DNA of 64,000 bases, from assembly GCF_000003815.2 (NCBI RefSeq), contig NC_049992.1:5953094-6017093 (forward strand). The letters are read 5' to 3'. Made by a program: the position numbers and the translations under genes. Below the pieces are notes generated by a model, which was not told the origin of the DNA, made no database searches, and worked only from the letters and a program-made list of their open reading frames with translations. How positions within the stretch are numbered: position 1 is the first letter of the stretch; each line of letters opens with the position of its first letter. The DNA comes from Branchiostoma floridae (taxonomy: Eukaryota > Chordata > Leptocardii > Amphioxiformes > Branchiostomatidae). Below are positions 6,201 to 54,075 of this stretch, piece by piece.

Positions 6201-7689
6201 TATTAGATAGGTTAGCTGTAGAAAATCTTTGTTAGTTTAGCATTGTTCTAAGCTATTGAAAACAGCTTGATTTGTTTATTCACTTGTTGATGGTAAGTAT
6301 CATATTATTAAATGTGGAAGAAGTCTTGAAAATCCACCCAGGAGTGACAAATATGAGCAGAAAATGTTGTCTTTTGGAAAATAAAAAGCCCAGCCACATT
6401 GACAGACAAAAATTTAACTTTTGATTTCAAGTTTAAAATGATACAATAATGTGGACCAGGTTAAAATCATAGTCATGTTGCTACCATCCCCAGTACTACA
6501 TGAAAACGTTAAGTCTTACAATTAGATACATATTAAATAGATAAAAAAAAAACTCCTGTGTATCCAATCTTTTGGCAAAGCTTAGCGTTTTTTTATGGTA
6601 TATTTTTTCATAATGAATTCTGTAACATTGTTGAAGAGGTTCATCAGTCACGTATGTTTACAGTTACTATCAATTTTTTTTCTAACAGTAACTGTTTATT
6701 AAAGGTAGAGACCGTACCTCCAAATTTTCGATGTCTACCAGTACATCTTGGACGTGGAGAATGGTCTAGTCTCGAATTCTGTAACAGTTTTATCCCATAT
6801 TTTTCTTTGTGTCCAGACCACAACCAAAGCTATGCAGGTGAGCAGTGTAGCGCAGGCAGACAAGAACCCCAAGGCCATTGAGAACTGGATCGACAGTATC
6901 AGCGAGCTACACCGCTCCAAACCTCCGCCCAACGTCCACTACACCAAGAACATGCCGGACATCGAACAGCTCATGCAGGAGTGGCCGCCAGAGTTCGAGG
7001 ACCTTCTGAACAGGGTGAGGACTGATGTCGTGGGTTCAGTTTGAGGAAACATTTCAGGATAAGTTTGTATTATAAGGCCTCCTAGTGGCTTTCTATGGTA
7101 CTGCAGCAGAACTTTTCTTCTTCTTCTTTTGTACTGCCAAGCCTCTAATTTTAGAGATTAACGGCAGATTTTGGTTTTAATATCTTTAGAGTTGGTCACT
7201 AAGTCACTCTATGATACTTCTGAAAAAATACACATTTTTTAACACATCAATCCTTGGTTGGTAACTGGACATTTTCCTTCTGTCTTCAAGTGACGTCCAC
7301 TGTTAATCTATTTACATAGGTCTGAGTCATTTTTTTTATTCATAGGAAGGTATTTCTGGTCCTATTATATTTTTTCTATGATTAAAAAAATGCTTATTTG
7401 AAGCCTAAATGGTAGCTTGACCTCTGGTTTTCCGTAGGTCGGGCTGCCGACAGCTGACCTTGACTGTGACCTTCCCACGTACATCGACCTGATCTGTTCC
7501 ATACTGGACATCCCGGTCTACAAGAACAGACTACAGTCTCTACACATCCTCTTCACTCTCTACTCAGAGTTCAAGAACTCCCAGCACTTCAAGGTGCTGG
7601 CTGAGCAGAACAACATGGAGAACCTACCCCCCCAGGCCCCCCCTGACGGGCAGGGGGGTGCGGATCGGTGGGCACCAGGGGGGGAGTAG
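298..7689 (+). CDS. IFT46: Intraflagellar transport protein 46 (IFT46), seven coding exons
   Basis: Exons: 298-387, 2011-2122, 2879-3010, 5147-5300, 5793-6003, 6817-7014, 7438-7689. Phases join cleanly (0,1,1,2,0,0) to a 382-residue protein. IFT46 is a core subunit of the IFT-B complex that carries cargo (outer dynein arms in algae) along cilia. The C-terminal two thirds (from about residue 136, VEGAYDPADY) is the conserved IFT46 domain, with IPDFIPAVGDIDAF, SISELHRSKPP and ILDIPVYKNR blocks that match vertebrate IFT46 closely. The N-terminal part is low complexity: a Q12 run (residues 96-107) in exon 3 and two Asp7 runs in exon 4. At 382 aa it is longer than the human protein (about 304 aa), mainly because exons 2 and 3 add Pro- and Gln-rich sequence. 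Family assignment is very secure; use of exons 2 and 3 in the mature mRNA rests on splice signals and phase. Confidence 0.95.
388..2010 (+). other. IFT46 intron 1
   Basis: Donor GTATTG at 388 and acceptor ccatgtccag ending at 2010. The intron holds the MITE at 1275-1600. Otherwise it is AT-rich sequence with several short open frames that have no coding character. Confidence 0.7.
1275..1600. mobile_element. MITE, short terminal inverted repeats
   Basis: The left end GCAGTGGTGGACAGGT pairs with the right end GACTTGTCCAACCCTGC as imperfect terminal inverted repeats. The body repeats the theme 'attctaaaattcacttgtc' and 'acttgcc'. A diverged fragment of the same family occurs at about 4710-4760 in intron 3. 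No coding capacity. Confidence 0.55.
3011..5146 (+). other. IFT46 intron 3
   Basis: Donor GTAGGT at 3011 and acceptor tcccag ending at 5146. It contains the 3120-4008 transposon and, at about 4710-4860, a fragment of the MITE family seen at 1275-1600. The remainder is AT-rich and uninformative. Confidence 0.65.
3120..4008. mobile_element. Non-autonomous DNA transposon with 26-bp TIRs
   Basis: Positions 3120-3145 (TAACATCC then TTGGCATAATACCGGTC) are the reverse complement of 3983-4008 with one mismatch. The element is about 890 bp and lies wholly inside IFT46 intron 3. It contains GC-rich stretches with ATGGCGG motifs (3577-3600) but no transposase. A TA may have been duplicated at the ends. 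Confidence 0.7.
5301..5792 (+). other. IFT46 intron 4
   Basis: Phase-2 intron; the split codon is AG|A (Arg). I see no repeat or RNA gene in it. Confidence 0.7.
6004..6816 (+). other. IFT46 intron 5
   Basis: Phase-0 intron. It contains the foldback element at about 6030-6180, described separately. The rest is AT-rich and shows nothing else. Confidence 0.7.
6030..6180. repeat. Foldback repeat with 25-bp hairpin
   Basis: Positions 6074-6098 and 6112-6136 are complementary over 25 bp with one G-T type mismatch and a 13-nt loop. The flanks (about 6034-6057, 'ttactcaagcaactggatat', and 6143-6175, 'tcttattacc...gatgtctaacc') recur around the hairpin in the IFT46 3' UTR (7850-7945), so both belong to one dispersed family. 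Confidence 0.7.
7015..7437 (+). other. IFT46 intron 6
   Basis: Phase-0 intron between the SELHRSKPP-containing exon and the final exon. Only T-rich and AT-rich sequence is seen. Confidence 0.7.
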
Positions 7690-10112: not shown

Positions 10113-11919
10113 GTAAGTCACAAACTCCTAAGGAAACAACGTAGCTCTAAAATGTTCAATTGCATGGGCAACACATTTCTTCTTTTTTTATACTTGAACA
10201 ATATTATAATTCCACCTTGAGTATTTTAATAGGATTCTATGTAAATTTATATGTACAATGCTCTCTTCTTCGTTCTCCAGAGTGACCCTTTTGAACACGG
10301 TGAACTGACCCCATTCGCAACCACTGCCGTGCTGTTTGTATAGTGCAGTAAAGTAGGTGCCGAATTCACAACCTTTTTAAAGCAGTGTTACAAACCTTAA
10401 GAACAGCTTTGAATAAAAAAGATATGTGATTCTTATGATTATACACGACGCAGCATTTTCAAGTTTAAGTACCATGTATTGCCTTGTTAATATCGCGTGT
10501 GACGATGCCAGGCAGATATTGTTGGACTTTAGTGTACAGTTGTTGACATTTTTTTAAAGAAAAAGTGTTTTCAAAGGCTGTTTATTAAGCTCCCTTCCCA
10601 ATCTTAATATCACGTACACATGTGCTTGCCACACAGTCGATAGCATTATGTCAATATTTCAGTTGTCAGTGCTGTTGTCTAGCCAGACTTAAAAATGAAT
10701 AGCTTTAAAAGTATGGTAGATTATAGTTGCTTTCTAGACAGAGTACCACTAAAAACAACCAATTAACCGTCTTCAAGTTTCAGTAGTTTGAGAAGAAGGT
10801 GTGTGCTTCACCCCAAAACTTTCGGTGACACGCTTGAGTTGTAGCTACTCTCTGAAGGTTACTGACCGAGACTTGTAATGGTCCTCTGGACTAGAATTAC
10901 AGTCCTATGGATTAGAGATAAAGGCTGCATTTTCACTAGCTTTTTTGCTAGATTTACAAACAATTCGTAGATCGGTTCTTCAGGACACAATAGACTGATA
11001 CAATGTATTCCTGACGTTTGGTATTAAAAGTGTGGAAAACAACATAAAAACATGGAGGGGGTGATATGCTTGACAAGAGTACTGCCCGGTTACTCAATGC
11101 CATTGTAACTCTAGCCGAGGGGGCATTGAATAGAGCTCGGCGGTTGAATGCACCTGTTAAAATTTGTGTACACACCCAGATCGTAGAGGGTCAATAGAGT
11201 TAGGGCCAACGACGACAGGCTATGATGTCTAAAAGACAACCGGTACCCAAAACCAATGCTACTGGTGATCATTTCATAAACAGTCCTTTGACAGCAAATC
11301 AATTCTATGCACGTAGAATCTGTTTTATGGTGTCTTTAAGTTTTTTTTATGCATACATATATACAGTTATAACCGACAGCTAATCGCAATAGTAACGATA
11401 CCTGTTGTACCATAATGTGATTCTTTTTTCATGTTATAAATTTCAGCTCTCTGGACGTCGACGACCCTTGATGGTGCTTTTTCATATTTCATACAGAAAA
11501 TGAAAAAAAGACAACGGCCATGTGATAAACACAGTGTACTTCAGAAAAATACGGGAAGATACACAAGAGCACAGATTGATGCAGATGTAAGCCAAGAAGG
11601 AAAAGTCAGCAGTGACAGAACACATCACAAGAAACAACTGTGGGAACTGTAGCTGGAAGGGAGCTAATAAGGTGATAGACAAATACTAGTATCGGACAAC
11701 AGATGCACTCGTCCGATTAACTGGGCTGCATGCATCAGAAAATTTACTACAGTCGCGTTTGAGATCGCATTCCCCACAATGCAACAGCGCCCCCTTGCTG
11801 CATTGGGAAGTAGTACAACCAGTATTACCCCGAGGAAGGTGACAGACAGTCAACGAAACGTCGGCCAGGTAGAAACACTTGGTTCGTTCGAAGAACTTTG
11901 AAACCCAGCTAAATACATC
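10113..11919 (+). other. Probable 5' UTR intron and leader of the sialyltransferase gene
   Basis: No coding exon is visible. The acceptor-like site ending near 11446 could start a leader exon of about 470 nt running into the ATG at 11920. Near 11840-11870 is a 'gacagtcaacgaaacgtcgg' block of a type common in dispersed invertebrate repeats. Confidence 0.35.
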
Positions 11920-14900
11920 ATGACAAGACGGAAACTGCTACTCATTGGTGCTGGGATGTGCGTTTGCATTGTGTTGTATGGGATACTGGGTAACACTCTG
12001 ACAACCATGCATATGCAATGTAAAATCATCAATGATGTACAACACCAACTCAAGTCATTATTCAACGATCAGCAGGGAGTCAACCAATCTCAACGTAGAG
12101 ATAATGCCATCTTGGAGGAGATATCAGAAAAAGCTCTGCCCAATTATACAGGGATTCGTCCAAGCGATGAAAACACAGTGTCTACGTCACCGGAAGAAAT
12201 GCCATGCGCTTCTGTTTTAAGAGAAGAACTGTTGTGTGACCTTAAGAAGAGCGTTCCGTTTTTCACCATCACAAGAAGACACGCGTATAAAGATGCCAGA
12301 AATGGTATATTCCCGGAGGAGAGTCTGGAGAAGTTGCTACATTTTAACTCGTGCGCTGTCGTCAGTAGCAGTCATGCGCTAATGCTTCACGAGTACGGAC
12401 AGGAAATAGGTACGTTATAACATCCTCCTCCGCAGAGACATCCAACGGCGAAACCCGTCTATGATGAACCTTGCTTTCTCAACCGTCACCCTTAGTTCCT
12501 GACCGCCCTGCTTATAAATATTAATGAGCTTACCTTTATATAGGCGAGACCCCTTCTTGAAAATTAAAAGGCCTATTCTGCGATTGGCTGACAGCTGGTT
12601 TGGGGAAGACAACCACAAGAACTCAGAGTGACGGTTGAGAAAGCAGGGTACATCCAGACAGGCGGTGTCGCTGTTGGATGTCACTGCGTAGGAGGATGCG
12701 TTATGATGGATGCTTGGTATAACTTAAGACTAACAGTTGCTGTTGTTCATGTTGTTTCTTTGTGGTTTATCTCAATATCTTCGTCGATGATAGATAGATG
12801 TTCTTACGTAATATTAGGTACTCACTACACACTTAAATGAGACCCTCGCTACAAAAATTACTCATTAGGCCACAGCAAGTAAATTTTATGGATGACATCC
12901 TCTGCAGACTGCAAAAATAGTGCGATAGGGCGAAAAAAAACAAGATGGGTTTAAAAAAACAAGATGGCTACATTTTCAAAATAGGCACCATAAAGTTGTG
13001 ATAAACGTTGTAACAAGAATTATAGGGACAAAACATGGTATCAGAGCCTACAAGGCATTCATTCCTGTATTCAAGACATGTACTGGTGTGGTAAAAGTGA
13101 CACTAGTGTGGTATCACATCACAAACAAAGTTGGTAATCACACTCATGGCTTCCAGTCACTTTGACAACTATTCAACAAGTTGTCTACAACTACAGTCAT
13201 GGGTACCTCGCAAGTGTTTTTTTTCTACAAGCACAATTATTAGGCTACAACACAACATATTTGCCTATTTTGGTACTTCTTTTGTTTATTTATTCACACA
13301 ACAAAATACATAAAACAATTCAGAAAAGAGTGCATAAAAAGCAGGAAAACCGTAAACAGCTGCTTATACCTTCATTCCTTGACAAAGACTGATGCTGTGC
13401 AGTCGATAATTTGGGTGAGTCCAATTTTTGTTTTGGAACAGGTCTACCATTTCAAGAAAGAGCTTAAACTATGCCCTCCTCCTCTATACTAAACAAATGT
13501 ATGGTAGCCGGTAAATAACAAAGAAGAGTAACTTACAATTTAGAAAAAATTCAAATACATCGGGGAGTTTGTTTGAGAATTTTACTAATTTGCAACTTAT
13601 TGATATCATGCATATTTGATATTTTTGATTTTAGAAATAGAGGGGCTGTATGTGAGAGAAAATCAGAGGCAGTGGCTATTCGCGTGAATTTCTTTTGTTG
13701 GGTTATGAGGGTGCAGGGTTGTACTTTATTTAATTTATCGTCAATTTGACCATCCCTGCAGAAGAAAAAATTCTTGGTTTTTTTTCTGAAATCAGGCGAA
13801 AATGAGTGCGCGCGCTGATGTCATCCATGAAATTTACTTGCTGTGGCCTTACAAGCAACTTGATATATATAGTTTGTAACTTTCACGAAACTTGCCTAGT
13901 TGCTTGAGTATCTTTTGTATTGCAATATTGACTGTGTCACTGTTTGCTGCACTGTCTCTGGCACTACTACGTTCTGATATTTTTAAGACATCACAGAAGC
14001 TCGCGGTCACGTCTGCGTTCTGAATATGTACATTGTACAGTAGAAGCCAGCCAATTGCACAACGGATTACCGCACATTTCTGTTAATTGCACGGAATCCC
14101 CAAATCCCAAACCGGTGCGGTCTAGCTCAGCTGAATAATTTCGCATTGCTGCACCATCCAGGTTATTAGAGGCTTTATTAGGCTTTGGTAATGGCACGGA
14201 ACATACTGGCAAATGGGGCGTGCAATTGAACGGCTTCTACTGTACAGTGTATCTTTAAAAATGAAGCGGAAATATCCAACAAATTTATTTTGCACTTCTT
14301 TCAGACAACCACGACATCGTGCTACGGTTCAACTGCGCCCCTACCGACAAGTTTGAGCATTACGTCGGCAGCCGGACGGATATCCGCATGATCAACACCC
14401 TCATCCCCCATCTGCACTGTCAGGACGAGTTCTGGAACGAAAACAGCACCATGTTCAAAGACGGAATTTTAGTCGTAGGAAACATGGACGGAATTAACTT
14501 TGGACCGCGAGGTTCTTTAGACATCAAGCAGCACATCCGCCCGTCATTTTCCAACTTGATCAAATACCGCAAGAAATTTCCCGAGAGGGTAAAGACTTTT
14601 ATACAGAGGCCACGATTCGGGCAGGCAATAATGGCGGAGTTGGCTCGGTTCTGTGAGACTACGGGGATGTGTAACAAGACGAGGCTGCGCCCAAGTTCGG
14701 GCATGCTTGGTGAGGATTCTATAAGCGGGCTAAATGTTTCAACTGCGCGTGCGCAAGGTCAAAGTTGAATGTCCTTTACTTGAAAACAGATCTTGTTCAG
14801 ACCATGCGCGATACCATGTCAAATGCAGTGTTTGGTTTATGTATCTGGGGCTTTCAACTTTGATACATTACCCACAATGCTTCACATTGCGCATACTCAG

Positions 14901-27339: not shown

Positions 27340-27534
27340 TTAAGACCTTTGCTATGTATATTATTGTTTATCAATTTTCTGTGGCTAACGAGCAACATTC
27401 CAAATGGAGGGTTGATCTGTTTACTTAACAATGTCTGTGTATTATTAATGTTTATGTAAAATCAATAAAAACACTATAAAACCAAATCAATGTGCGTGAC
27501 CAGTTTGCCAAAAAATTCAAACTAAATCAACATT
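27340..27534. other. Short AT-rich spacer
   Basis: Sequence between the piggyBac-like element and the 41-bp array; nothing recognised. Confidence 0.4.
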
Positions 27535-28500
27535 CCTGTCCCTGGTGCTTAAATCCTTCACCCATAACATGAAGCCTGTTTATAGTTCTAAATATTATCT
27601 ACCATAATCAGCATGGTTTTCTCTGGTGCTTAACACTGTCAACCAGAATCAACATGCCTGTTCCTTGTGCTGAACACTATCGACCTAAATCCACATGCCT
27701 GTCCTTGGTGCTGAACGCTATCAACCTAAATCCAGGTGCCTGCCCCTTTTGCTGAACACACTATCAACCTGAACTAACATGACTGTCCTTGGTGCTGAAC
27801 ACTGTGAACCTAAATCAACATGCCTGTCCCTTGTACTGAACACTATCAACCTATATCAACATGCCTGTCCTTAGTGCTGAACGCTATCAACCTAAACCAA
27901 CAAGCCTGTCCCTTGTGCTGAACACTATCAACCTAAATCAACATGCCTGTCCTTGGTGCTGAACACTTTCAATAATATTAACATGACTGTCCCTAGTGCT
28001 GAACATTATCAACCTAAATCATCATGCCTGTCCTTGGGGCTAAATACATTCAACTGATACCAACATTTCCTGTCCTTGCTGCTGAACACTATCAACCTAA
28101 ATCACCATGTCTATCCTTGGTGCTAAACATTATCAACCTAAATCAACAAACCCGTCTTGTGTGATGAACACATTCCAACTAAATCAAAATGCCTGTCCTT
28201 GGTGCTGAACAGTTTCCTCACCAATCAACATGCCTGGCCTTGGTGCTGAACACTATCAACCTAAAGCAACATTACTGTCCCTGGTGCTGAACACTATCAA
28301 CCTAAATAACATGCCTGTCCCTGATGATGAACACTATCAACCTATAGCAACATGCCTGTCCTTGGGGCTGAACACTATCAACCTAAAGCAACATTACTCT
28401 CCCTGGTACTGAACACTATCAACCTAAATCAACATGCCAGCCCTTGGTGCTGAACACTACAAACTGATATTGATATGCCTATCGTTGGTACTGGGTACCC
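27535..28500. repeat. 41-bp minisatellite, about 23 imperfect copies
   Basis: The unit is approximately TGTCCTTGGTGCTGAACACT followed by ATCAACCTAAATCAACATGCC, 41 bp, repeated over about 965 bp with substitutions and a few indels. A frame within it reads repeating 'LxLNTINLNxMP', which is a by-product of the repeat because 41 is not a multiple of three. Confidence 0.93.
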
Positions 28501-32583: not shown

Positions 32584-32871
32584 AAGGGCACAACCCGCTG
32601 TACGCGCAATTTGTCCGTACGTTTTTTTTAAAGAGGCCACGTCCGCCACGTATTTCTGAAAACGTACAAGCTGTAGGCGAATTCGCAGCCCGATGGCACA
32701 CAAAGTTTTGCTTACACGTAAAGTTCTACGGCATGACTGCATGCTCCAAAACCCGTCGGATTCCCTACGAGTCCGTACGAGGGCGGTACTTACCATTTAC
32801 AGATCAAAAAGATTACCCACGTTTTTGCACGTAAACTGCACGTATTTGCACATACAGCGGGTTGTGCCCTT
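32584..32871 (+). mobile_element. ACGT-rich MITE, copy 1
   Basis: A perfect 19-bp TIR: AAGGGCACAACCCGCTGTA at the left and its reverse complement at the right. The interior is dense in ACGT ('gtccgtacg', 'cacgtccgccacgtatttctgaaa', 'cccgatggcacacaaag'). A second copy in the same orientation is at 51937-52271. Confidence 0.85.
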
Positions 32872-33459
32872 ACCTTTAAATGGGCAGTTTCGGTCAAATT
32901 ACGGCCGGCGCCCTGGCGATTGCAAAAGTCCGTTGGGATTAAAACTTCTATGTGATTTCTGTTTTGCATCAAAAATGATGGAAATACCAAGCCCAGTCCA
33001 ATTTGTGACGCGGCAGTTTTTACAGCAAAATAACATGCTCGACGTTCGGGCGATTTTGAACTTCGGCGAGCTCCAGCTGACCTAAAAATTCGTCTGGCGT
33101 TTGCTTGAAATCGTGACCCCGGCGTAAGAATAAGTGGGTGCTCAGGACAGTGAGTAAAATGGACGAGAATATTTCAATGAGGCTTGTGACAGCAGCTGGC
33201 TTCATAATTCATGCCAACAGGTTTGGCTGAAGTCATAGTTTTCAATAAAGCACTGGGAATTTTTGAATTTGAGTGTGTTTGACTTCAAACAAAAAGATGA
33301 GCATATTAAACCTTTGTAGTCGTATGCGAGGATCTCTCACCATACTAGTAGTAAGACGCGTGAATATCATCTATAGGTAATATGAAACTTATCCTTGCCC
33401 TAATTCCCTATTAGTATAAACTCCATTCTACATGTTTTTGGGAAATTTTATACAGTTCT
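32872..33459. other. Intergenic, nothing recognised
   Basis: Open frames extend from the neighbouring MITE but have no coding character. No repeat identified. Confidence 0.4.
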
Positions 33460-38393: not shown

Positions 38394-39322
38394 CTAAGGG
38401 CACAATATCAGCAGCATGGCAGGATTCGAATTCAGGGCTTCTGGTTTGTGTGAAAGGTTACTTTCGATATTCAGCTAAATTTGATAAAAGACATCAAGAA
38501 AGTAGATCACTGTGATTAAATCTTTTACATCTGGGAGAAGTGTGGAAGGCCCTTTCCTAAGGGCACAAGATCAGTAGCATGGCAGGATTCGAGCTCAGGG
38601 CTTCTGGTTTGTTTAAAGAGTTACTTTCGATATTCAGCTAAATTTGATAAAAGACATCAAGAAAGTAGATCACTGTGATTAAATCTTTTACATCTGGGAG
38701 AAGTGTGGAAGGCCCTTTCCTAAGGGCACAAGATCAGTAGCATGGCAGGATTCGAGCTCAGGGCTTCTGGTTTGTTTAAAGAGTTACTTTCGATATTCAG
38801 CTAAATTTGATAAAAGACATCAAGAAAGTAGATCACTGTGATTAAATCTTTTACATCTGGGAGAAGTGTGGAAGGCCCTTTCCTAAGGGCACAAGATCAG
38901 TAGCATGGCAGGATTCGAACTCAGGGCTTCTGGTTTGTTTAAAGAGTTACTTTCGATATTCAGCTAAATTTGATAAAAGACATCAAGGAAGTAGATCACT
39001 GTGGTTAAATCTTTTACATCTGGGAGAAGTGAGGAAGGCCCTTTCCTAAGGGCACAAGATCAGTAGCATGGCAGGATTCGAACTCAGGGCTTCTGGTTTG
39101 TTTAAAGAGTTACTTTCGATATTCAGCTAAATTTGATAAAAGACATCAAGGAAGTAGATCACTGTGGTTAAATCTTTTACATCTGGGAGAAGTGAGGAAG
39201 GCCCTTTCCTAAGGGCACAAGATCAGTAGCATGGCAGGATTCGAACTCAGGGCTTCTGGTTTGTTTGAAGAGTTACTTTCGATATTCAGCTAAATTTGAT
39301 AAAAGACATCAAGGAAGTAGGT
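38394..39322. repeat. 163-bp tandem repeat array, about 5.7 copies, carrying a B-box-like motif
   Basis: The landmark 'ctttcgatattcag' recurs at 38461, 38624, 38787, 38950, 39113 and 39276, exactly 163 bp apart. Each unit contains 'aagggcacaagatcagtagc' and 'ggattcgaactcagg', which fits the pol III B-box core GATTCGAACTC and echoes the body of the SINE-like repeat at 9690-9885. The first units have 'gagctc' and 'gtgtgga'; later units have 'gaactc' and 'gtgagga', so blocks of units were amplified in turn. Confidence 0.95.
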
Positions 39323-40755
39323 CATCACTGTTGTTAAAAGCAAATTTAAACACGTATTTAGTGATGATTGGTCTTTAATGATACTACAGGGTGTTTTCCT
39401 ACAGCTTTGAGGATATAAGGAGGCACACAAGAAAGCTGATTGCCGACCACGCAATGACGTCTGCTGGAAAATGTCAAAGTCTTGATGTACGTCACCAGAC
39501 CAGACCGTAATGGCAGAACCAATCTTAGCTCACGTGTTTTCTGTTCTTTCAGTACGTTTGGAAAAAAAAAACACGTGAAAACGAGTGTTCATCCTTGCCC
39601 CTTGGATCCAAGGATTGTGTTTGTTCTAGTTCTTGCTTTCTATTTCCTTTTGATTTTGTATCAGGGGGGGGGGGGTATACGCCAGTCTTTTGTTTATACT
39701 GTACGTTATCATAAAGAGCAAGGGAGCCAAGCGTATGTCGTGGCACATGTGATGTCTCAATTCAGCCCTATTTTGTACGTCTACATTGAAAAGCAATAAA
39801 AAAAACACCAATGCGAGTTTTGGCACGACGCAGTTTTCAGCTTGGCATGACGCAATTTTTAGCTCTGGCACGATTTCAAGCATGCAAACAAACGCTTTTG
39901 TATCTTATCGTCTAGACTTGAGAATGTTCTCAAAGCATTTTGCTCACTGTAAATCAACCTGTGTTAGCTTCATAAGAAAACATTTAAGTCTGACAAGTCG
40001 AAAGACTTTTGATAAGTTTCGTTCATTAATTAATTACAAGAAAACCAAAAATATTGCAGTTGATGGTAAACAAAAGACATTGCAATGGCCGACTGTACAG
40101 CACACTCTGCTAAGCACTTAGCACAATAAAAATAATATCATATTTATTTCTTAAGAATATATCATATTTAGCTATATAGCTTATTTTATACCCTCCATTG
40201 TCATCGTATATGGAGAATCCTATTAAATAGATATCATATAGGTAGTTGAACACACACCACAACCAGTGGACTAGCTTCCTGCTGTAGTGCTTGCCCAAAT
40301 AAAAAGAAACGGAAATGGACACCATCATATACGCCGTAGGGTAGGGATGGGGGGCTAGATTTTTAACGCAGGAACTTCCTCCTTCATTTACCCCCGGATG
40401 AACGCCATTTCCTCCGGCCCATAAATGGCTTAACCCTAAGTAGTACGGCCTATATCACATCGCACATTTCCTGTGTATCATATGGACCAAAATCTCCAGG
40501 ATATAATTTTAAAGCTTTTAACCCAAGGCAGGGATTTGTACGCGTGATCCCAACGTTCGCTATTCATTGGAAACTCCTATGTTTAAGCTTTCGAGGATTT
40601 CAAGCCGGATTTCCAAGTCGCTGTGACCCTGTGTGTAATTCAATATAGGGAGATTATCTAGAATCGAGCAGATTAGAGGTCGTTGTCGGTTATACTGGCG
40701 TTCAAAGTGGTACTGGTAGCGGGGATGACTACCCTGCATAGTCTAATTTTCAAAA
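39323..40755. other. Intergenic, nothing recognised
   Basis: A G10 run is at about 39665-39675. At about 40240-40290 is a minus-strand fragment of the 'agctagtccactggtagtg' repeat also seen at 56905-57020. No gene. Confidence 0.4.
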
Positions 40756-42881: not shown

Positions 42882-42960
42882 TTACGTCATGGTTCCGATT
42901 TACGTAGGTCTGTCTCACATATAAAAGGACGACGTAAGCGTCGTACGGATTCAGACTTCA
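42882..42960 (+). promoter_or_regulatory. Promoter of the neuropeptide gene: CRE-type site, TATA box, initiator
   Basis: TTACGTCAT at 42882-42890 is a CRE variant (CREB/ATF site). TATAAAAG at 42920-42927 is a strong TATA box, and TCAGACTT at 42951-42958 is an initiator-like site 31 bp further on, giving a probable start near 42952. The CRE would lie about 65-70 bp upstream of the start. A second 'gacgtaagcgtc' motif lies at 42930-42942, between TATA and start. cAMP responsiveness is inferred only. Confidence 0.65.
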
Positions 42961-43003: not shown

Positions 43004-45439
43004 ATGAAGAATCTACACGCCTTTTTGTTCCTCTCCGTCCTGACGTTGGTGGTGGTCTGGACGTCGGCTGAGATTCTACCCTACCAGCAGAGCGTAGACG
43101 ACATGGACAGAGCACAGGTAGGCCCACGTTTTACCCATGCGATATTTCAGTCGTCGAGAAGTTGTTTCTACGTTTGTTAACATTTACGAACAGTGGCTGA
43201 ATGTTATGTGGCGTCCAAGGACCGAAAACGATCACCGGAGCCACTTCTAGAGTTTCCTGCTCGATGTTATGACCTAGAATAAGGTGCTTACACGGCTTTC
43301 CTTGCTCACTCTATGGTGTAAACCTGACTTTGCTTGGGTAGGTAAAAGTAAAGGGTTGATCTGCGCCTGCCAATACCGTGCTCTAGACACAGTGTATTAC
43401 GTTCCACTGCCCCTGTTGCCTTGAAAAAAATGCTTTGGAACTGCATTATCTTTTACATCATTTAAGAACGACGCCTACTGACAGCACAAGTATTTTGTCC
43501 TTGGTAAGTTAAGAAAGATAAATTAAACGTTAAGATGTCCCTGTCGGGTACCCTGCCGAAACGTTGAAAGGTACGGGTGGGTACCTAAACAAAAAATTCA
43601 GGTACAGGTACGGTCCAGGTTTAAAGGACGAGGTTCAGGTCCGGACCTGAAGCTAGACCTAATTGTCTGTGAAAATTTGTAAATGGACAATATTTAAAAT
43701 TAGTCCATTTCGCTACAAAGGTGTCTGCTTGCTATAGTATCTGACTTCTTTTGGCGTTTTAAAATCACATGTTCATGTAAATACACCAAATGCCTCTGTT
43801 ACCTCAGACCAAATTTGACTGTTAAAACTTGGTAAAAATGACTATCTACTATCCTCTACTTTGCTCTTGCTATTTTCTTGGACCGGTAAGCCCCAAAACA
43901 CGTGAACGCCAGCCGGTATTATCTGTTCATTTTCAAATCGGTCCAAAATCCGGTGCACTGATTTTTTTTCAGGTCCGTTTTTTTTTCCAGACCCGTCCAA
44001 CAAGAAAAAAAGGTTATGGACCGGTAAAGCCTACGGGTACCCACCCCTATTTCCAGGTATTCGATACGTTCTTGGAAAATAACTTTACAACAACGATGTT
44101 TGATGTTATTGTCTTTCATATGGACGGAATTCTGAGAAAATTATGCTGGGGTTAGTGCAGTGAAGAGACAACTCAATGATACACGCTTGGCTTCCTCGCT
44201 CTCTATGATAACGTTCAGTTTTAACAAAAGACTGGCGGTCTTTGAAGTATTCAATATTCCTGACGATTTCAAAAGTTGACATCGGTGTGTCATCTCAGCC
44301 AACTCGCTTTAAATGTTTTGCGTCTGATAAAAGAGAAAATTGCTGCGTCTACCAATAACAAGCTGGTTGATCAGAGAGTCGAAAAGCTGGGAACCGTCTT
44401 TCGCTCAACAAGGGGTAAAAAGGATCACAAAAGAAATATGCAGTTTCTTACGTAGCATCCGTACCCCACGCTTTTTCCATTCGGTTAATTCGTCCAGTGA
44501 GCATTTGAGCTTATTTTAATCGTAATTTTTCTGACTTAGGGAAAAGAGATGTGTTTAGCTTTATTTAAGCAATCCAAAATTTTGAAGCGAACTTCGGGTC
44601 TTGTGACGTGGTCACTAATGATAAAAAGAAAAGAATTATAAAAAAAGAGACTGAAATGGCAAATCTGACGATGTCTGTTTGAGCATATGTCAATGGTACA
44701 TTAGGTGAATACCATTTAGTCACTGCATATTCCAAAACACCACAGGGCGCAAACGGCCAGAATCATAAGAAATATTCGTTGTTTGAAATCTATAATGGCG
44801 AATTCAGGCCTGAAGGACCCGACGACTTCAAAGACATAAAAAAATGAATTAATGTTTCCTTGCATTTTTGAATGTGATGAAACATTTTCTCCTCAGAATT
44901 TGAAATTTGCTTGATTTGCAGGAGTCATATACTACAAAACCCCTGACTCTGAGTGTCACAAAATGAGTGGAATTGCCTGCTTTCAAAACCATTTCAATTA
45001 TCAAGCACTTATTTACACGAGGGCAAACACAACGTAAAAATGCTACGGAGAGCTTGACAGCACTTCCGCCCTGTGTCAAGCCAAATTTCTGCCCCTGCTA
45101 AATATTTGCTCCGGCGCTGCTTGGAGGTTCCCATTATACCCCAAGGGGAGAGAAGTGCGTCCCTTTCGTTGGGAGTAGCAACTTTCAAGCAGAGGTCTGA
45201 GCCAATTTGGGGAGAATGGGTCACGAAACGGTGTCTTAGACCCTAACCCCAACCCCAATCCCAACCCCAACCCTAGCCCTTACCCTAACCTTATGTACAT
45301 TACTCTTACCCTAGCCCAACCCTATCAATGAATGAATGAATGAAAGACCTTTATTGTACATTCATGCCTCGACGGGCTAGGTACAGTAGCCCAATTACTA
45401 ACCCTAACTCCATGCACGCACACTAGCCAAGGTGTGTGT

Positions 45440-45470
<31 letters not shown>

Positions 45471-48400
45471 GGTAGTGTATGGCTGAGCAGAAATGTGGCT
45501 CCCCACAGTGTAGATTGACGTACGTAACAATGAAAGTTTGATGCCTACATCATACATTGCAAAATCACATTAAAATTCATATCACAGTCCTTAAGTATGA
45601 TTGTGCGTTCTGTTGCACGATGCCCCGTTCTCTTTATCATCCGAATTGTTTCTGATACACAGCCTTTTAAGTGAGGAGATTGCGGAGCGGTGTGATACCA
45701 GACAACAAACATAAATCTAAACAAAACACGTCACTGATATTACCAAACTGCATCTAAGGTTTTGAACAAATCAGATAGAATGTCGTAATTTTGCAGTGCT
45801 TTTCTAGTCCACTTAAAACAGTATTGTAAAGAATAATCGTTTATAGTTATTAATTACTGTATTGATATGTGATTATTTTGCATAACTCCACCGTAGACAG
45901 GTAAGTAATATATAATGGAAAAGAGAATCGTCAGAAGATTCTATTTGACACAATAAGCTCTCTCTCTCTCTCTCTCTCTGTCACTGTCTCTCTCTCTCTC
46001 TCTCCCATCACTCTGTCTCTGTTCCATCTCTCTATTTTACGAAAATAGAAAAATGTTATTTCAATCCCAGACGCACAATACGACTGTCGTATTTCTAACG
46101 ATATCACAGGCATAACCATGGAATATGCTTCGAATACATAATCATATTTGTCGGAGGATATTTCATAAGGGATCTTTACCACCCTCTGTTACTTGCCTGT
46201 AGCATATGGTATAGGTATACACCGTGTATCCGGTCTTGTCTACCATCCTGCCTACTGCAGCTGCATGTCTATATTTGCCTATGTACCACTGGTGTTATAC
46301 TTTTAGGGCCATACTGATGTGATTATGTGGTTTACATCCTATAATCAAAGCCTATGTATATGGCTTCTTCGCTACGTTGGGACGACTTAAGATACTGCAC
46401 CACATCGCCACATCTTAAGCTTCTTGGAGACACCAAATATCAAAAACATATTGTCGACGTATTGCTAAGTGATGCTTTGCATGGTGCTTTAATAGGACCT
46501 CCTTGGTTGTGCAACGAAACACATACTCCCCTTTCGTTCTTTGGGAAAATATCCAGGTGCTACACTTTCATCATTAATTGCCCATTTATTCCTTCAAATA
46601 CGCATTGTGATTGTGAGAAATAAGAGAAAAGCTAACTCTGTATGTAGTAATCATAAATACTGGGAATGTGCAAATATGCATAGTGCCCTATACAGTATGT
46701 TTACCGTGCAAACACTACAGGTTCCGCGAGTCGGTTAGGGTTGCGGAAATACAAATTTACGACCCAAATTGTTGGCTGACAGCTCGTGTCAAAACATTTG
46801 ATTTTGTCATTAGCTACTGGTAGCTTGCGTCACATCCCTCATTGGTAATGTGTTAACGATTAGTCTTCGATAATAATTGTGTACATTATCTTCGTTCAAA
46901 TCCGACCCACCATCTGTTTGCCCTGTCCTCATACTATCCAGCCACTACAGTGACAAGTTAGAGATAATATACCAATCCAATATATTTACATATGAAGACA
47001 TCACGGTACCCCAACATACAATTTCCGACCAAGAATATATATCTTTTTATTCATCTGTAAGATACTTTTTCTCCGAGTCCCGCAAAGCTCAGCTCAAAGG
47101 AGTGGCGTATTCGGTATGTATAGTGAATAGTGCCCAGTGGCGCATAGGGCGGCAAGCTTCTTTTTATTATAGCCAGCAAGCGGTTATTAAAGATAATAAC
47201 TAGAATTATTATATAATATTTCAAACGATCAGCTGAAAATTATCTTATAATTTTACAATTATCAAGTTTGATATTGATTGCTGTTGGTGCTGCCTCAGAG
47301 TCCCCTTGCCAATGTGCCGTTGATGTTTTTCGGATCCAATGTAGAACGGGGTGGTTAGCCGGCCGGTGTCACGTGCACACAAAGTAATTGATGCCTGCCA
47401 AATCATTGTCGGACACTGTTTATGGGTTTAAAGTATACCTGAAGAAAAAAGTACGTCACACCCGTGGGCTTGATAATTTATGAGTATGAGCGGTTTGGGA
47501 AAGTACTGAATAACACTTTATATAACCCAGCTCTAATCCTAACTCAATCCTAACCCCAACCCTAACATCACGAAGGCACAATGCCTCGTCTGGCATTATT
47601 TGACAAGGTATTTATTTTGCACGACACCGGACGAAAAACTGGATACCAATCTTAAGTGCCATGCTTATGGCAGACGGCATAGACGTCAATATTATATAAC
47701 ATTCCGGTCGCATTGTTACGTAAAACTGAGGTCCTTAGAAGGATCAAAATCTTAGCTGCCCAAATTCCAGTCATTTGCTTCTAACATAACGATACGAGTC
47801 TTGGGGATCTCTAATCCACAACAGTGACCCTTTTTAAGGTTAGCACGGCAACCTGATACATCCCGGTAAAACAAAGACGGAGAGCCTTTTTCTTAACCTC
47901 CTAGGTGAAAGTCGTCAGAACCTATAATTCGGGTTTATTGAAGCTTGCGTCAGTTCAGAATCGATATTCGTAAGCTAAAGAAGGTAACACGTCAGTACGT
48001 ACCTCAAGGACACAGGTGCGAGTGGCACTGACGTCATTCTCAAGCAAAGTTAAATTGTTATTTCAAACAGAAAATGATAAATTTCGTTTGTTCAACTCCA
48101 GTCTTAATCTTGGAATGGGAAATCCATCGCTTCTGTGAAGTCATGCAGATAGAACACGTGACTAGGAGTACAGAAAAAGTTCAGGTACAAGTACGGTTCA
48201 GGTCCAGAGAATCAGGTCCAGGTCCGGACCTGAAGCTGGACCTAATTATTTGCGAATACCTGATCTATGAATGGGCGATACTTAAAACAATGGTCCATTT
48301 CGCTACAAAGAATTCTGTTTGGTACATTTGCGTTCGAACGTTCTAAGGTTCTATCTTTATGTAAACAACACTCTGTTTTAAGTTTGGCCGTAGAAGCTCG

Positions 48401-51400
48401 GTAAAATGACTATCAACTCTCCTCTACTTCGCTCCTGTTCTTTTCTTTGAACAGTAAGCTCCCAACCATGTGAATGCCTGCCAGTATAATCTGTTTATTT
48501 TCGAATCGGTCCAAGATCCGGCCTGCTGATTTTTTTCTGGACCGGTCCAACAAGAAAAAAAAGGGGTGTTGTAGGGCCCTGATGCAAATAGCATCTTTTC
48601 CCCTCAAGTCAAGGATATGAGACCGTTGCAATACACTGTCAAAATGTGTTTCAAAATTAGAGCCTACGTGATGAAATATGTGTCTATTACTCCATGAATC
48701 TCCAGTATATAATATCATCAAATGTTTTCCTTGGAGATTCACGTTATGGTATCGACATAGCATTCTGCTTTCATCATCCAGTCTGGTCAGCTTGGTCGCG
48801 GTCTTGTAATAAGAATGCAAGTTTTAAAAACACCTTGCACAGAAATGATAAGATTCTTCTCAATCCTTTCCTATAGGAATTGCATGGGCATTACATGTAG
48901 TTGTAGACTTTGAAAGTGGGGTGCTGCCCTGCAAAAAGGTCGAACTGGGGTCTCCAAGTTACCGGTTAATTGGAACCAGTTGAGCTACAGGTACATCCAC
49001 TGATGAGTCAGAATTATTATACCGAAATGTTCTACAAAGATGTTTCTCAGAGAAACTGTAAGTTTTTACCCGCATGCAAAAAGCCTTTCAGACCCAACCT
49101 TCTGTAATAGTATATGATGAGGTCAACTTGAACATGACCCCGCCCTTCTGACACACATGTCTTAACGTAACGATATGAATTCCATCCCATCTGACCGAAA
49201 ACGTATCAGAAACATATCATTACCAAACGAATCGGTAGGAGGTTACTGATGCCACAGAGAGATCCCCGGAGAGATGACCCGGATGACTAAACTTTGACCT
49301 AAGTCTTTGTTACCTGCTCCGAGACAGAATGGCACGCCCCCAAGAATGAGAACCACGTTGTTACGTCATTTCATTCGCAAGACCCCGTTCAGTGATCCTT
49401 GTTTCTTGGTTGAAACCTGCAATATAACCATGAGATTAATTGTACCAGGTCAATTCCATACTGTAAAAAAAGGTCAAAAGATCAGATGCTCCAGCATTAG
49501 CCAGTAATCAAGGACGTGGGTTTGAATGAAATGTCAGAGTTGCTCAAACAATTTTCCGTATGACTAATCATGACATCCTGATGGTTATCGGGTATCAATC
49601 TTACATGTGGTTTCCAGACACCTGACTGGAGGTACTTTATACTGTTGGGCATAAAGCACGAAGGACGAGAAAGTCAGCCAACCACAGTTTTAAGAGGTTT
49701 TGCTGGACTAGGCCTAAGAAACTTATGTTACTTCTTGCCAATCATAAGAGCTTTATACCACCTAGAATCAGTGTCCATTACATGTCCAGAAGATAGAAGC
49801 TAGCTAGAAAAGGAATCAAGCGGCCAAAACCTAAGTATTTCTTTGATAGGACAAGACTTAACCACACGTCAAATTTGATTCAACACATCAAATATTTCTG
49901 ATTATTGATACAAACAAATGGCTTACCGGAAAACAACGTCCTTGACAAAGATGAAAATAACCAGAAGACACTTTTGTCTCAGGTGCGCTTTTTGAAAGTT
50001 CGAACGTGTTAATCTTACCAGCAAAGGTTAGAGCACCATTTTCAGAACCACTCGCCTACGGTTTAATCCTGTGAACGCCACCCACATTCAAAATGGCGCC
50101 CATAAGTAATCTTTTGATGATGCCTGGGTGATAAAAAGGTCATCAAAAAGGCTACAAGAGTCTATCACCAGGTTCATGATTCCATCGCATGCCATATGGC
50201 TCGGATTAAGAAACATAAAAGGTTAATCTTGTGGGATGAGGCTGCATTCTAGTTCCGGTCCAGAACATTCCAAATTTATATTGGTACTGAGAAGTAAGCA
50301 TACAACGTGTGCACTCCTGTACCCGGTGTCAAGCAAAAATTTTTCCCCAGCCAAATATTTGCCACGGTAATACTTGTAGGTTTCGAAATAACCTTGTGGG
50401 AAAAACGTGCGTCACACTCGTGATTCGTGCTTTCAAACAAACGTCTGAGTGGATGTTGAAAGGAGGGGTCACACTGTGGGAGCTACCTATTAAATCTAAA
50501 TTTATCCCTGAACTTAGTTTGAACTGGCCCAAACGTTAACCTCATCTTCACGCATGCGCACTTTCTCACGCAGCAAACGTTTAGCGGAGTAGAAACTTAG
50601 TACGACCTTAACGTATGCTTAAAAGTGTGCTTAAGTTAAACATTTGATTTCTTTCTATTTTCTCCCAGTCCGAATAGAGTTAGTGGTCCTTCTGATGTTT
50701 TGCATATTTATGTTAATGAACTGGAATTAACTAAACGTGTATAAATTAACATTCACGATTACATTTGCTTGTATCGCATACCCGGTAAACTGCCTTGAGG
50801 TTTAACACGCCAGGTCTGTATTGAAGAGTACAAGCTGTATATCCAGACAGATTTAATTGATCCCCTTACATCGGTAAGATTCACTACTAAATTTGGTAAA
50901 TGAAGTGGGATCATTTACGTGCTCGAGGTGTGACTCTTCTCAAATACAGGGCGTCAATTTAACGTCCTATGCGAGGGACGGTCCTTAACCGAAGCTAGGT
51001 AATCATTTACACCTGAGTAAAGCGAGGAAAGTCGTGTCAAGTGCCTTTCCCAAGGGCATAATAGTCCAGGAGATACCTGAAAAAAATGTCGTTTCGAAGC
51101 ACACCTAGTACATAATTAGTTCACTTTCACACAATAGCTTGATGTCTCCCCGTCATTTTCAAGTATGTTGTTCTGTGGTCCAAGTGGGACATCATGGTTC
51201 TAGGACTCTCTATGCAAATTTATGCAAATTAGCCGAATATACCAAAAATTAAAAATAAAGCAGCATAACTTGAATACTACTTGTGCAAATAACATCAAAC
51301 TTGTTGAAAGTAAGGTAGGTGATATATCAACGGATCGGAACCTCTGGGTTACGGACCAAACACCCTACCGTTGCGCCACATAGCACCACATTAAACAAAC

Positions 51401-53577
51401 AATGCACATACAATGATCACTAGAAAAGAAATTGAAAAAGACATTTTGCTGAACAAAACATTTCAAACATAGGTCATTTCAGCCATTCGGTTGTTGAAGG
51501 GTTATATCGGATTTGGTACTGTCAGGAATAGAAGGCGCAGAAGGAGATGAAATATTGACACTTCACATTGCTAGAGCTTGTCTGCACCTGCGTTGCCACG
51601 AGTTCCTAATGTGTCAAAAACAGTCTACAGCTGAAGGTGACATCGTCAACCCACGGATGACGTCAATGAGCTTAAGACACACTGGCTGTTTTGAACACGT
51701 TGTCTTGTAATAGAAACTAGCACGTAAACACGTCACTCATCTGTCTGGGGGTTCTTATTTTTAATACAAGATCTACCTGGACATACATTTGTTGATGCAC
51801 AGAACTTGTGAGGGTATCGCCATGTATGGTGAATATTACAACCAGCATGGGTGTTTATTGTGTCTTAAATTAGACTGTAGCAAAATGCGACGGAAGGCAC
51901 GTCAGTTACACCCCAGTGCAGGGAGTAGTCTAAGTTAAGGGCACAATCCGCCGTAGGTGTTTTTGTCGGTACGTTTTTTTCTTGGATGCCACGTCCGCCA
52001 CGTATTTCTGAAAGCGTTTAGGTTGTACAGGGTGGGCGCGTCGCCCGTACTGGCACCTACGAGGGGACGAATCCGCTGCCCGATGGCACACAAAGTTTTG
52101 CCTGCACGTAAAGTTCTACGGCGTGTCTGCGTGCTCCAAAATCCGTTCCCAGATTCTCTACGAGTTCGTACGGAGGCGGTACTTACCACTTACGGATCCC
52201 AAAAGATTGCCCACGTTTGGTCACGTACATGTAGACAGCACGTATTTGCAAGTACGGCTGGATGTGTCCTTAGCTTTAGTAGCTGGGTTATATCGAAGTT
52301 TGTCCTCGAGATACAGATCTAACGAATCCTCAACTAGCTTTGCAATTCAAATTTGAGTTGTTTCTTTAGAGGTAAGTCCATACTGGTTTGATTATATGGA
52401 TGGCATCCTTATGATATGATTCTAGCGCGCGAGCGTGTTCGAAGAAAATTTAGTAGTAGCATTGTTAAGAGTCTAAGACCTACTAAGAAAATGTGTTTCT
52501 TTTTTTCTTCCTTACCTAGTAAAACCTATTGACCCAATTAAAGCCTTTTTGAGGGTGGACAGTGGAGTGTCGTAGTGTCCAGTTAGGATTTTTATTAAAG
52601 TAAAAAAAAGCAAAGAATTATGAGTGCTCTCATGCATTTCAGTTTTCCTTTGTTAAATCAAGGATTAAACTGTGTTGTATCACTAAAGTTTTGGGCAAAG
52701 TAAAAAGAAAATCAGTTAAAAGAAGATAATTCTTACGTAATAACCCAGACTTTTCCAGGACTGAAACAGATTTTTTTCCTCCTAGGCCCAATCATAATAC
52801 AGGTTGAGAAGGACTATTATGCTAAATGTATTTTGACTTCTTGGTGTTTCCATGCAGCTAGACGATGAGATCTCCCCGCCGTACGAAGATCTCGCCGACG
52901 CGAAGGAGGCCGCCGCCTACTGGATCCTGCGCAAGGCCCTCCTGGAGAACCCTCCTGGAAAACCCGCGCATGCGCGGAACGTCATGGACACTGACGAGGA
53001 AAGTCGCGAGTCACTGAGGACGACCGTCGTGCAACGCCTGGCTAAAAGGTGGAAAGGTAGGGCTGCGTCATCGATATGTCCTGTTTAATCCTTTATGACG
53101 TCAGCGTACAGTTAGAGCGTCCGCATGGCATTCTGGGACAGTTTGAAGAAAGAAAAATGGCTGACCAAAGGGTAACAGCTGTGTTTTTTTCATGACCGTC
53201 TTAAGCCAAAACAGGGCATGGCAACGATCGAAACATTTTTCTCCAAAAGCATAAAAGTAGTGTGTTTTTAAGGCATAAACAGGGATCGAAAAATTTTTCT
53301 CCAAAAGCATAAAAGTAGTGTTTTCATAAGTCATAAAACGTATTGTCGTTCATGATAAGTCATGAAAAGAGAAGACGTTCATGGTTCATGGTCCATTCTG
53401 ATTCCAGCTATAGTATGGTAGCTATGGGGCCATGACCCTGTTAATAATAAGGAGAGGTTTATCAGTTAGTCAAAAATATACAGAACAGATACCCGTTTCA
53501 ACTAATGCTGAAATATTTGTTTACCTTTTTTTACAGTAAAATGTAATAACGCCTACTGGAAGTTCTGCAAGGGTTGA
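43004..53577 (+). CDS. Somatostatin/urotensin II-like neuropeptide precursor, three coding exons
   Basis: Exons 43004-43117, 52858-53056, 53537-53577; introns are phase 0 and phase 1; 117 residues. Residues 1-22 are a signal peptide (MKNLHAFLFLSVLTLVVVW, then TSA). The pro-region is acidic, with an amphipathic stretch (AKEAAAYWILRKALLENPP) that recalls the helical segment of somatostatin pro-peptides. Lys101-Arg102 is a dibasic cleavage site. After it come 14 residues, WKVKCNNAYWKFCK, then Gly117 as amide donor and the stop. The predicted product is an amidated peptide with a Cys107-Cys115 ring (seven residues between the cysteines) holding Tyr-Trp-Lys-Phe. It shares C-x-N-x-aromatic-W-K with somatostatin-14 and aromatic-W-K-aromatic-C with urotensin II. 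It would act as a secreted ligand, probably at SSTR/UTR-type GPCRs (inference). Elevenin was considered and fits less well. The gene architecture is clear; the family name is probable. Confidence 0.75.
43560..44050 (+). mobile_element. Dispersed 'AGGTCCGGACCT' repeat, copy 2
   Basis: Begins near 'ggtacgggtgggtacc' (43570-43585) and ends near 'ctacgggtacccaccc' (44031-44046), which are roughly inverted. Inside are 'aggtccggacctgaagct', 'gtccatttcgctacaaag', 'aaaatgactatctactatcctctactttgctc' and 'ccgtccaacaagaaaaaaa'. No coding capacity. It lies in the first intron of the neuropeptide gene. Confidence 0.7.
44051..45240. other. Neuropeptide gene intron 1, nothing recognised
   Basis: No further exon, repeat or RNA gene recognised in this part of the intron. 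Confidence 0.4.
45241..45330. repeat. Degenerate telomere-like (CCCTAA/CCCCAA) tract
   Basis: An irregular run of ccctaa, ccccaa and cccaat units, followed after a gap by 'ctaaccctaactcc' (45399-45412). A similar short run is at about 47525-47570. The units are too irregular to be a functional telomere. Confidence 0.7.
45433..45472. repeat. (GT)n followed by a long G run
   Basis: About ten GT units followed by an unbroken G run of about 18. It could form Z-DNA or a G-quadruplex, and it is also a site prone to sequencing length error. Confidence 0.9.
45957..46028. repeat. (CT)n microsatellite
   Basis: Interrupted CT/TC repeat of about 70 bp within the neuropeptide gene intron. Confidence 0.9.
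46029..48171. other. Neuropeptide gene intron 1, nothing recognised
   Basis: Open frames here show no coding character. The only motif noted is the telomere-like patch at about 47525-47570. Confidence 0.4.
48172..48575 (+). mobile_element. Dispersed 'AGGTCCGGACCT' repeat, copy 3
   Basis: Shares 'aggtccggacctgaagct', 'ggtccatttcgctacaaag', 'gtaaaatgactatcaactctcctctacttcgctc' and 'ggaccggtccaacaagaaaaaaa' with copy 2 in the same order and orientation. The first ends are not clear. Confidence 0.7.
48576..50660. other. Neuropeptide gene intron 1, nothing recognised
   Basis: No gene, exon or clear repeat recognised in this 2-kb stretch. Confidence 0.4.
50661..51515. mobile_element. Decayed relative of the piggyBac-like family, with a SINE-like fragment
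   Basis: Phrases such as 'ccgaatagagtta', 'ttttgcatatttatgttaatgaactggaatta' and, near the right end, 'gaacaaaacatttcaaacataggtcatttcagccattcggttgttgaagggtta' echo 26369-27339. Positions 51010-51075 are a SINE-like fragment ('aaagcgaggaaagtcgtgtcaagtgcctttcccaagggca'). Confidence 0.45.
51937..52271 (+). mobile_element. ACGT-rich MITE, copy 2
   Basis: Same family and orientation as 32584-32871. It begins AAGGGCACAATCCGCCGTA and ends 'acggctggatgtgtcctt'; shared interior 'gccacgtccgccacgtatttctgaaa' and 'cccgatggcacacaaagttttgcctgcacgtaaagttctacgg'. A 40-bp insertion (about 52027-52070) makes it longer. Confidence 0.85.
52272..52857 (+). other. End of neuropeptide gene intron 1
   Basis: Ends with the acceptor 'ttggtgtttccatgcag' at 52857. 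Nothing else recognised. Confidence 0.5.
53103..53536 (+). other. 3' part of the second intron of the neuropeptide gene, with local duplication
   Basis: The intron runs 53057-53536. The phrase 'atttttctccaaaagcataaaagtagtgt' occurs twice, about 53237-53264 and 53295-53322. If the intron is retained, the frame continues from the dibasic site as WKGRAASSICPV and stops at 53088. Confidence 0.7.
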
Positions 53578-54075
53578 TTCGTTCCCGGCATCCTCTTTGT
53601 CGTCCCGGTGACGTCAGACAAGGAGCCAATAGCAGCACAGACCAGAGGGGCCATAGCAGCAACACGTGATCGTCACATGATCAGCGCGTGATCGCGGATA
53701 CATTTTGCATATTTTGAAGAAGAAAAAAATGAATAGAAATTCTTTCATTGAAATGACGGAGTGAATTTAAGTACAGCCTGTTCAAAGTACAACAATTAGC
53801 TCAACAAACAATCAACTGTATCATATTCTATCACGAGGGCGAAAGTAAAACACGCATTTCTTTTAGATACTTACGTGAAAAACATTATCTATCCACAGGG
53901 TATTACGGACCTATACATTATAGTATTATATATTAGACGAGAAGATGTGAAAATCTTCAACTTGTGCATATCTTTTAGGTTATTGGCCTTTGCTAAGCGG
54001 TTATTTTTGCACTGCATGCTTTAAGTAGAGGAAGTTTCATGTTACAAAATACGGAATAAAGAAGGCTACAGTGAG
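53578..54075 (+). other. 3' UTR of the neuropeptide gene and poly(A) signal
   Basis: AATAAA is at 54055-54060, about 480 nt after the stop, giving a probable cleavage site near 54075. A cluster 'acgtgatcgtcacatgatcagcgcgtgatcgcg' at about 53662-53696 has four GATC-containing half palindromes. No other feature. Confidence 0.6.

Follow-up and report, generated by a model that had tools for sequence, protein, structure and literature searches.

A candidate second somatostatin-type neuropeptide gene with a shortened ring in amphioxus

Introduction

Urotensin II (UII) is known chiefly from vertebrates, whose genomes are the basis for inferring its divergence from somatostatin (SST). A UII-like peptide has been described in Aplysia (PMC3493602). 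In the amphioxus Branchiostoma floridae a somatostatin-type precursor is already published (JGI:72051; PMC4772807), the peptide is described as having 13 residues between its cysteines (PMC7536072), and chromosome 14 is given as the location of the somatostatin gene (PMC8851493). We read these three accounts as meaning one B. floridae somatostatin gene. Here we describe a different gene in 64,000 nucleotides of B. floridae DNA (NC_049992.1, positions 5,953,094 to 6,017,093; hereafter the 64-kb window), the predicted peptide of which has seven residues between its cysteines; this difference in spacing makes it distinct from the published somatostatin. We consider it a putative second, so far unnamed, amphioxus gene of somatostatin type, encoding a secreted cyclic neuropeptide with a shortened ring and paralogous to the published one, with a probability of about 0.6. 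The assignment is based on the anatomy of the gene with its canonical splice sites and TATA box, its amphioxus homologues, the spacing of three residues after the first cysteine (Cys1), the asparagine two positions beyond Cys1, a profile score, a phase 0 intron and a published account of an enlarged group of somatostatin/opioid/galanin receptors, with no MCH receptor subgroup, in amphioxus.

Published work provides the markers against which such a gene can be judged. A phase 0 intron in the N-terminal part is described as a hallmark of somatostatin/allatostatin-C (SS/ASTC) genes, whereas the human UII and URP genes are described as having a phase 1 intron there (PMC7536072). Values given for chordate and echinoderm SS2/SST peptides range from 10 to 15 residues between the cysteines. 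Echinoderm SS1 is assigned to the allatostatin-C branch, which is thought to have been lost in chordates (PMC8851493).

Gene model and precursor

Three coding exons on the plus strand of the window (43004-43117, 52858-53056 and 53537-53577) join at GT-AG sites to give a precursor of 117 residues, as read from the sequence. The coding part of exon 1 (43004-43117) specifies a putative signal peptide of approximately 22 residues, its cleavage site placed by eye rather than by a predictor, and the start of the propeptide; it ends in ...DRAQ at a phase 0 donor (CAG/GTAGGC), and its product matches the N-terminus of the public protein LOC118430626. The predicted intron 1 (43118-52857) has GT-AG borders and lies after codon 38. 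Several dispersed repeats occur in the window, and one pair, 72% alike (32584-32878 and 51937-52278), has its second copy in intron 1, approximately 580 bases before exon 2.

Exon 2 (52858-53056) encodes propeptide, the dibasic convertase site Lys101-Arg102 (AAAAGG, 53044-53049) and the first residues, WK, of the predicted mature peptide. Intron 2 (53057-53536) is in phase 1 and interrupts the coding sequence of the mature peptide after these two residues; it has GT-AG borders and a pyrimidine-rich tract, TTTACCTTTTTTTACAG. The 41 coding bases of exon 3 (53537-53577; TA AAA TGT AAT AAC GCC TAC TGG AAG TTC TGC AAG GGT TGA) supply the remainder of the mature peptide, VKCNNAYWKFCK, a Gly amide donor and the stop codon TGA, so that after phase 1 joining the precursor ends in ...AKR-WKVKCNNAYWKFCKG-stop. 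The dibasic pair, the two cysteines seven residues apart, the Tyr-Trp-Lys-Phe of the ring and the Gly amide donor, which the initial annotation of this DNA had reported, are all seen in the joined exons, and its junctions at 43117/52858 and 53056/53537 agree with the predicted proteins of three amphioxus records.

Conservation within amphioxus

These records were obtained by searching 5.8 billion proteins with the 117-residue precursor at E values up to 1. Three matches were returned, all from Branchiostoma and all with uninformative names. The B. floridae predicted protein LOC118430626 is the precursor itself (117 residues, 100% identity and coverage), B. lanceolatum Hypp5857 is 78% identical to it, and LOC144925179 from a B. 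floridae x B. belcheri hybrid, taken to be the belcheri copy, is 70% identical. This protein search thus recovers relatives in amphioxus only. Repeating the search with an alignment of the three proteins at E values up to 10 gave 2228 candidates and no further relatives, although this alignment-based search reaches only relatives that share short exact words.

Are the three exons then joined in a real transcript? The gene model is known from the sequence and the public proteins are taken to be automatic predictions, which leaves room for a gene-prediction artefact with exons that do not belong together. The predicted proteins of the three records nevertheless align over their full length, B. 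floridae and B. lanceolatum have the same ring, and the B. lanceolatum and hybrid proteins align across both junction positions, in a comparison of predicted proteins rather than of exon structures. We consider an artefact very improbable.

All three proteins share the pattern KR-W-K-x-K-C-x-N-x-[YF]-W-K-F-C-x-G. The invariant residues are the dibasic pair, both cysteines, Asn, Trp, Lys and Phe within the ring, and the Gly, and the residue before Trp is Tyr or Phe; the ring reads CNNAYWKFC in B. floridae and B. lanceolatum and CSNSFWKFC in the hybrid protein. The coding part of exon 3 is conserved in all three except at five substituted positions, and 10 of the 15 columns of the mature peptide plus Gly are invariant. 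Conservation is higher in a stretch of the propeptide, N79-R102 (codons 79-102, 52978-53049, plus strand; NVMDTDEESRESLRTTVVQR.AKR), where 22 of 24 columns do not vary; this segment could be a second product or part of an extended form like SST-28. The features of a neuropeptide precursor, namely a signal peptide, a dibasic site, a short C-terminal peptide and an amide donor, are kept in all three proteins. The complete gene model and this conservation lift the gene above a chance motif.

Ring spacing

The ring was compared with known rings in a set of proteins from one search with amphioxus, SST, UTS2 and UTS2B queries, in which 120 of 367 matches were listed; all counts of this kind refer to those 120. 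The set is preselected rather than random and may miss somatostatins with unusual rings, and since the query held SST, UTS2 and UTS2B letters its vertebrate matches are no evidence of homology. Within the terminal cysteine pair, an aromatic residue (or Ile) followed by W-K is found in 112 proteins and is absent in eight. The number of residues before and after this core is 3/4 in 64 proteins, 0/1 in 45 and 3/1 in the three amphioxus proteins only. The 3/4 arrangement holds for each of the 64 proteins that carry the Pfam somatostatin domain. None before and one after is the arrangement in 31 of 31 proteins with the urotensin-2 domain and in 12 of 15 with the urotensin-2B domain. The C-x3-aromatic-W-K spacing of somatostatin is present in each amphioxus protein. 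Asn at Cys1+2 occurs in 66 of the 67 proteins with a gap of three, comprising 63 of the 64 somatostatin-domain proteins and all three from amphioxus. A terminal Gly is found in none of the motif-bearing somatostatin-, urotensin-2- or urotensin-2B-domain proteins.

The other side of the ring closes differently. One residue between Lys and the second cysteine (Cys2), giving a W-K-aromatic-C closure, is what most of the urotensin-domain proteins have, and it argues for an amphioxus UII/URP orthologue, the second product of a proposed SST/UII tandem duplication that has kept a somatostatin-like N-terminal half. The text of PMC7536072 gives SST-type and UII-type genes a tandem origin. The cyclic hexapeptide CFWKYC that characterizes UII and URP is absent, however, from both amphioxus rings, and the 15 UII and 7 URP tails used for comparison end on Val with no Gly amide donor.

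Gene structure and family assignment

The phase 0 first intron is that of somatostatin-type genes and not the phase 1 intron described for human UII and URP genes, which favours the SS/ASTC side and disfavours UII orthology. The two-intron pattern, phase 0 in the N-terminal part and phase 1 in the C-terminal part, is the one described for echinoderm SS1 genes, and a chordate allatostatin-C-type gene, from the branch that published work infers to have been lost in chordates, would account for it. The seven residues between the cysteines also fall between values reported for protostome allatostatin-C (6) and SS1 (10), and the arthropod peptide ASTCCC is described as amidated (PMC5627052). The SS1 phase 1 intron is known here from a description in the text. 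Neither the F-x-P core of allatostatin-C and SS1 nor the published F-x-A/V/L/I variants occur in CNNAYWKFC or CSNSFWKFC, which have aromatic-W-K instead, and we regard an allatostatin-C assignment as quite unlikely.

Elevenin, CCAP and MCH did not appear in the general protein searches, which returned amphioxus proteins only, or in Pfam, members of these families not having been compared directly.

Profile and structure comparisons

The three amphioxus proteins were aligned with hhalign to profiles of 19 SST, 15 UII and 7 URP sequences selected by eye; the profiles are narrow, those of UII and URP coming from mammals only. The score against vertebrate somatostatin was 23.2 (probability 12.8%, single-comparison E 0.0022, 14 columns aligned), against UII 24.5 (17.2%, 0.0014, 25 columns) and against URP 21.4 (7.0%, 0.0051, 6 columns), and in all three comparisons the alignment covers the C-terminal end. 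When columns were shuffled, the somatostatin score was reached in none of 300 full and one of 300 tail-only shuffles, the UII score in none of 300 of either kind, and the URP score in three of 300 full and seven of 300 tail-only shuffles. UII has the highest score of the three families, at a probability that is itself low, and the URP score is the one most often reached by shuffling. Taken with the intron phase and the missing CFWKYC core, UII orthology is disfavoured, and we consider this explanation doubtful.

Several observations weigh against the somatostatin-type assignment. The hhalign probability for somatostatin is low, and the UII score lies slightly above it. Searches with amphioxus-only queries (E up to 1, or up to 10 with the alignment) recovered no somatostatin or urotensin protein. 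Pfam at E up to 10 gave no somatostatin (PF03002) or urotensin model, PF25532 (E 0.055, below cut-off) being the only match, with HMMER filters that discard most matches above E 0.1. Sequence searches of the PDB found no somatostatin or urotensin chain, only weak and apparently unrelated ones, the best being protein phosphatase 1 regulatory subunit 21 (E 0.022) and, in the other search, retinol-binding protein 2 (E 0.91). As family-only searches find no relatives outside amphioxus, the case for homology depends on a short core, which could have arisen by convergence. The ring size (seven residues between the cysteines, outside the published 10 to 15), the amide donor and the intron inside the mature peptide are unlike vertebrate somatostatin, and the (0,1) intron pattern is shared with genes placed on the allatostatin-C side. 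Paralogy to the published B. floridae somatostatin is presumed. The motif alone is not beyond chance: a relaxed pattern (cysteine ring, aromatic-W-K and stop) has a single match in the window, and 47 of 200 simulated 64-kb sequences contain one or more, with a mean of 0.26. A stricter pattern, which also asks for a dibasic pair in the same frame, is not matched anywhere in the window, since KR and the ring lie on either side of intron 2.

Convergence is a rival explanation, in which an unrelated, amphioxus-specific cyclic neuropeptide arrived at an aromatic-Trp-Lys ring via a related receptor pocket or by accident. It agrees with a gene found only in Branchiostoma, with no detectable similarity beyond the short core and a relaxed motif for which chance matches within 64 kb are not rare. 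It has to contend with the joint match of cysteine spacing, Asn, aromatic residue, Trp, Lys, C-terminal location, precursor length and intron phase, and appears unlikely to us. A somatostatin-type gene with a shortened ring remains the preferred reading.

Two further analyses carry little information. The predicted structure of the precursor (three sequences) has a mean predicted local distance difference test (pLDDT) of 47.8 and a predicted template modelling score (pTM) of 0.23, which is useless for a fold search, and a distant DNA search of phage records gave no match, an uninformative result for an animal gene.

Proposed processing and action

On the somatostatin-type reading, the precursor would enter the secretory pathway and a prohormone convertase would cut after KR. 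The two cysteines would then form a disulfide, so that Tyr/Phe-Trp-Lys-Phe is presented within a 9-residue ring, and conversion of the C-terminal Gly to an amide would give WKVKCNNAYWKFCK-NH2. The amidated peptide most likely acts on a G protein-coupled receptor of the expanded amphioxus somatostatin/opioid/galanin group. This receptor cluster is described as containing 29 sequences in amphioxus, some of them basal to SSTR2, 3 and 5, with no MCH receptor subgroup reported for amphioxus in that account (PMC2246102). According to PMC3560075, 18 amphioxus sequences clustered with human SSTRs in that earlier work, but true orthologues could not be identified. The peptide would probably be an inhibitory signal, since the SS/ASTC family is so described, one member, ArSS1, being excitatory (PMC8851493).

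Candidate regulatory elements and neighbouring genes

A TATA box matching the consensus, TATAAAAG (42920-42927, plus strand), starts 84 bases upstream of the start codon; the same octamer is found in the window at 16009 on the plus strand and once, at 14596, on the minus strand. A cAMP response element (CRE)-like octamer, TGACGTAA, lies on the minus strand at 42882-42889 (TTACGTCA on the plus strand), its start 38 bases upstream of that of the TATA box. It is a candidate promoter element that matches the consensus and is one of eight in the window in either orientation. An AATAAA polyadenylation signal (54055-54060) is located 478 bases 3' of the stop codon and is one of 42 copies on the plus strand. 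All three elements are no more than matches to a consensus, and the CRE-like octamer and the polyadenylation signal are suggestive only.

A scan of the window for the motif recognised no SST gene. One other C...FWK...C stretch, at 29563 (CLGDLIFWKYFEC), was considered as a tandem somatostatin gene and rejected because there is no dibasic pair in the 25 residues before it and a stop follows ten residues after the second cysteine. Among the neighbours are exons of IFT46 (5746-7686, plus strand), where all three plus-strand open reading frames (ORFs) tested match PF12317 (intraflagellar transport protein). A sialyltransferase-like gene (approximately 11902-14765, plus strand) has a Pfam glycosyltransferase family 29 match in its second ORF (14265-14768); the upstream ORF (11902-12420), which we take from its motifs to be sialyltransferase family 29, has no Pfam match. 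By themselves these neighbours do not put the locus in a known SST/UII paralogon. The window also contains a tandem array at 38394-39338 (plus strand), with a unit of approximately 163 bases and shifted copies 91-98% alike, and a diverged one at 27470-28493 (plus strand), with offsets of approximately 41 and 82 bases, in which TTCAGCACC or its complement occurs seven times.

Significance and comparison with known systems

The initial annotation saw in this peptide a possible invertebrate member that informs the origin of the SST/UII superfamily. The invertebrate chordate neuropeptide precursor with both patterns stands: C-x-N-x-aromatic-W-K and the W-K-aromatic-C closure occur together in each of the three amphioxus proteins, and the ring sizes given with the cysteines included are right (9 here, 6 in UII, 12 in SST-14). 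An ancestor or link of the superfamily is not supported, as the gene is seen only in Branchiostoma, the phase of its first intron is of SS/ASTC type and a UII-like closure is possible by shortening a somatostatin-type ring. More speculatively, and with low confidence on our part, one ring might keep both halves that were split in vertebrates between somatostatin (C-x-N-x-FWK) and UII (WK-aromatic-C), as a surviving descendant of the SST/UII gene or the amphioxus counterpart of UII, and engage both receptor types. Whether the locus is linked to the amphioxus SST gene bears on the existence of a pre-vertebrate UII gene and on the choice between a UII counterpart and a lineage-specific duplicate of SST. 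The mixed-type ring is a concrete peptide for assays with receptors of amphioxus as well as the SST and UII receptors of vertebrates, and the gene can be used to test the relation of these two vertebrate hormone families. A second somatostatin-like signal in amphioxus, as suggested here, is to be weighed when ligands are paired with the expanded receptor cluster.

Among the open-access titles and abstracts listed, none names the gene or peptide, and its letters and identifiers are unmatched, in a search with figures, supplements and most subscription papers outside it; the gene or peptide may be listed elsewhere. None of the 120 proteins of the spacing set was recognised as the published B. 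floridae somatostatin. Compared by description only, the two share their species, the WK motif and two cysteines but differ in the number of residues between these.

Starfish ArSS2 (RAKNARCMADFWKGRGLVDC) has the same spacing of three residues from Cys1 to FWK, although six residues separate Lys from Cys2 and its mature peptide ends at Cys2. Echinoderm SS1 is alike in its phase 0 and C-terminal phase 1 introns; SS1 and protostome allatostatin-C differ in their FxP-type core, and ArSS1 has no WK. UII and URP (PF02083, PF28458) share the W-K-aromatic-C closure and a short tail after Cys2. The amphioxus peptide, in contrast, has three extra residues after Cys1 and a Gly amide donor in place of the terminal Val, and its gene has a phase 0 rather than a phase 1 first intron. 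Vertebrate somatostatin (PF03002, SST-14) is unlike the amphioxus peptide in having four residues rather than one between Lys and Cys2 and a ring of 12 rather than 9 residues, and the amphioxus gene differs in its Gly amide donor after Cys2 and its phase 1 second intron within the mature peptide. The two are nevertheless alike in C-x-N-x-aromatic-W-K counted from Cys1, in the position of the peptide at the C-terminus, in precursor length (116 residues in many somatostatins) and in the phase 0 N-terminal intron of the human gene.

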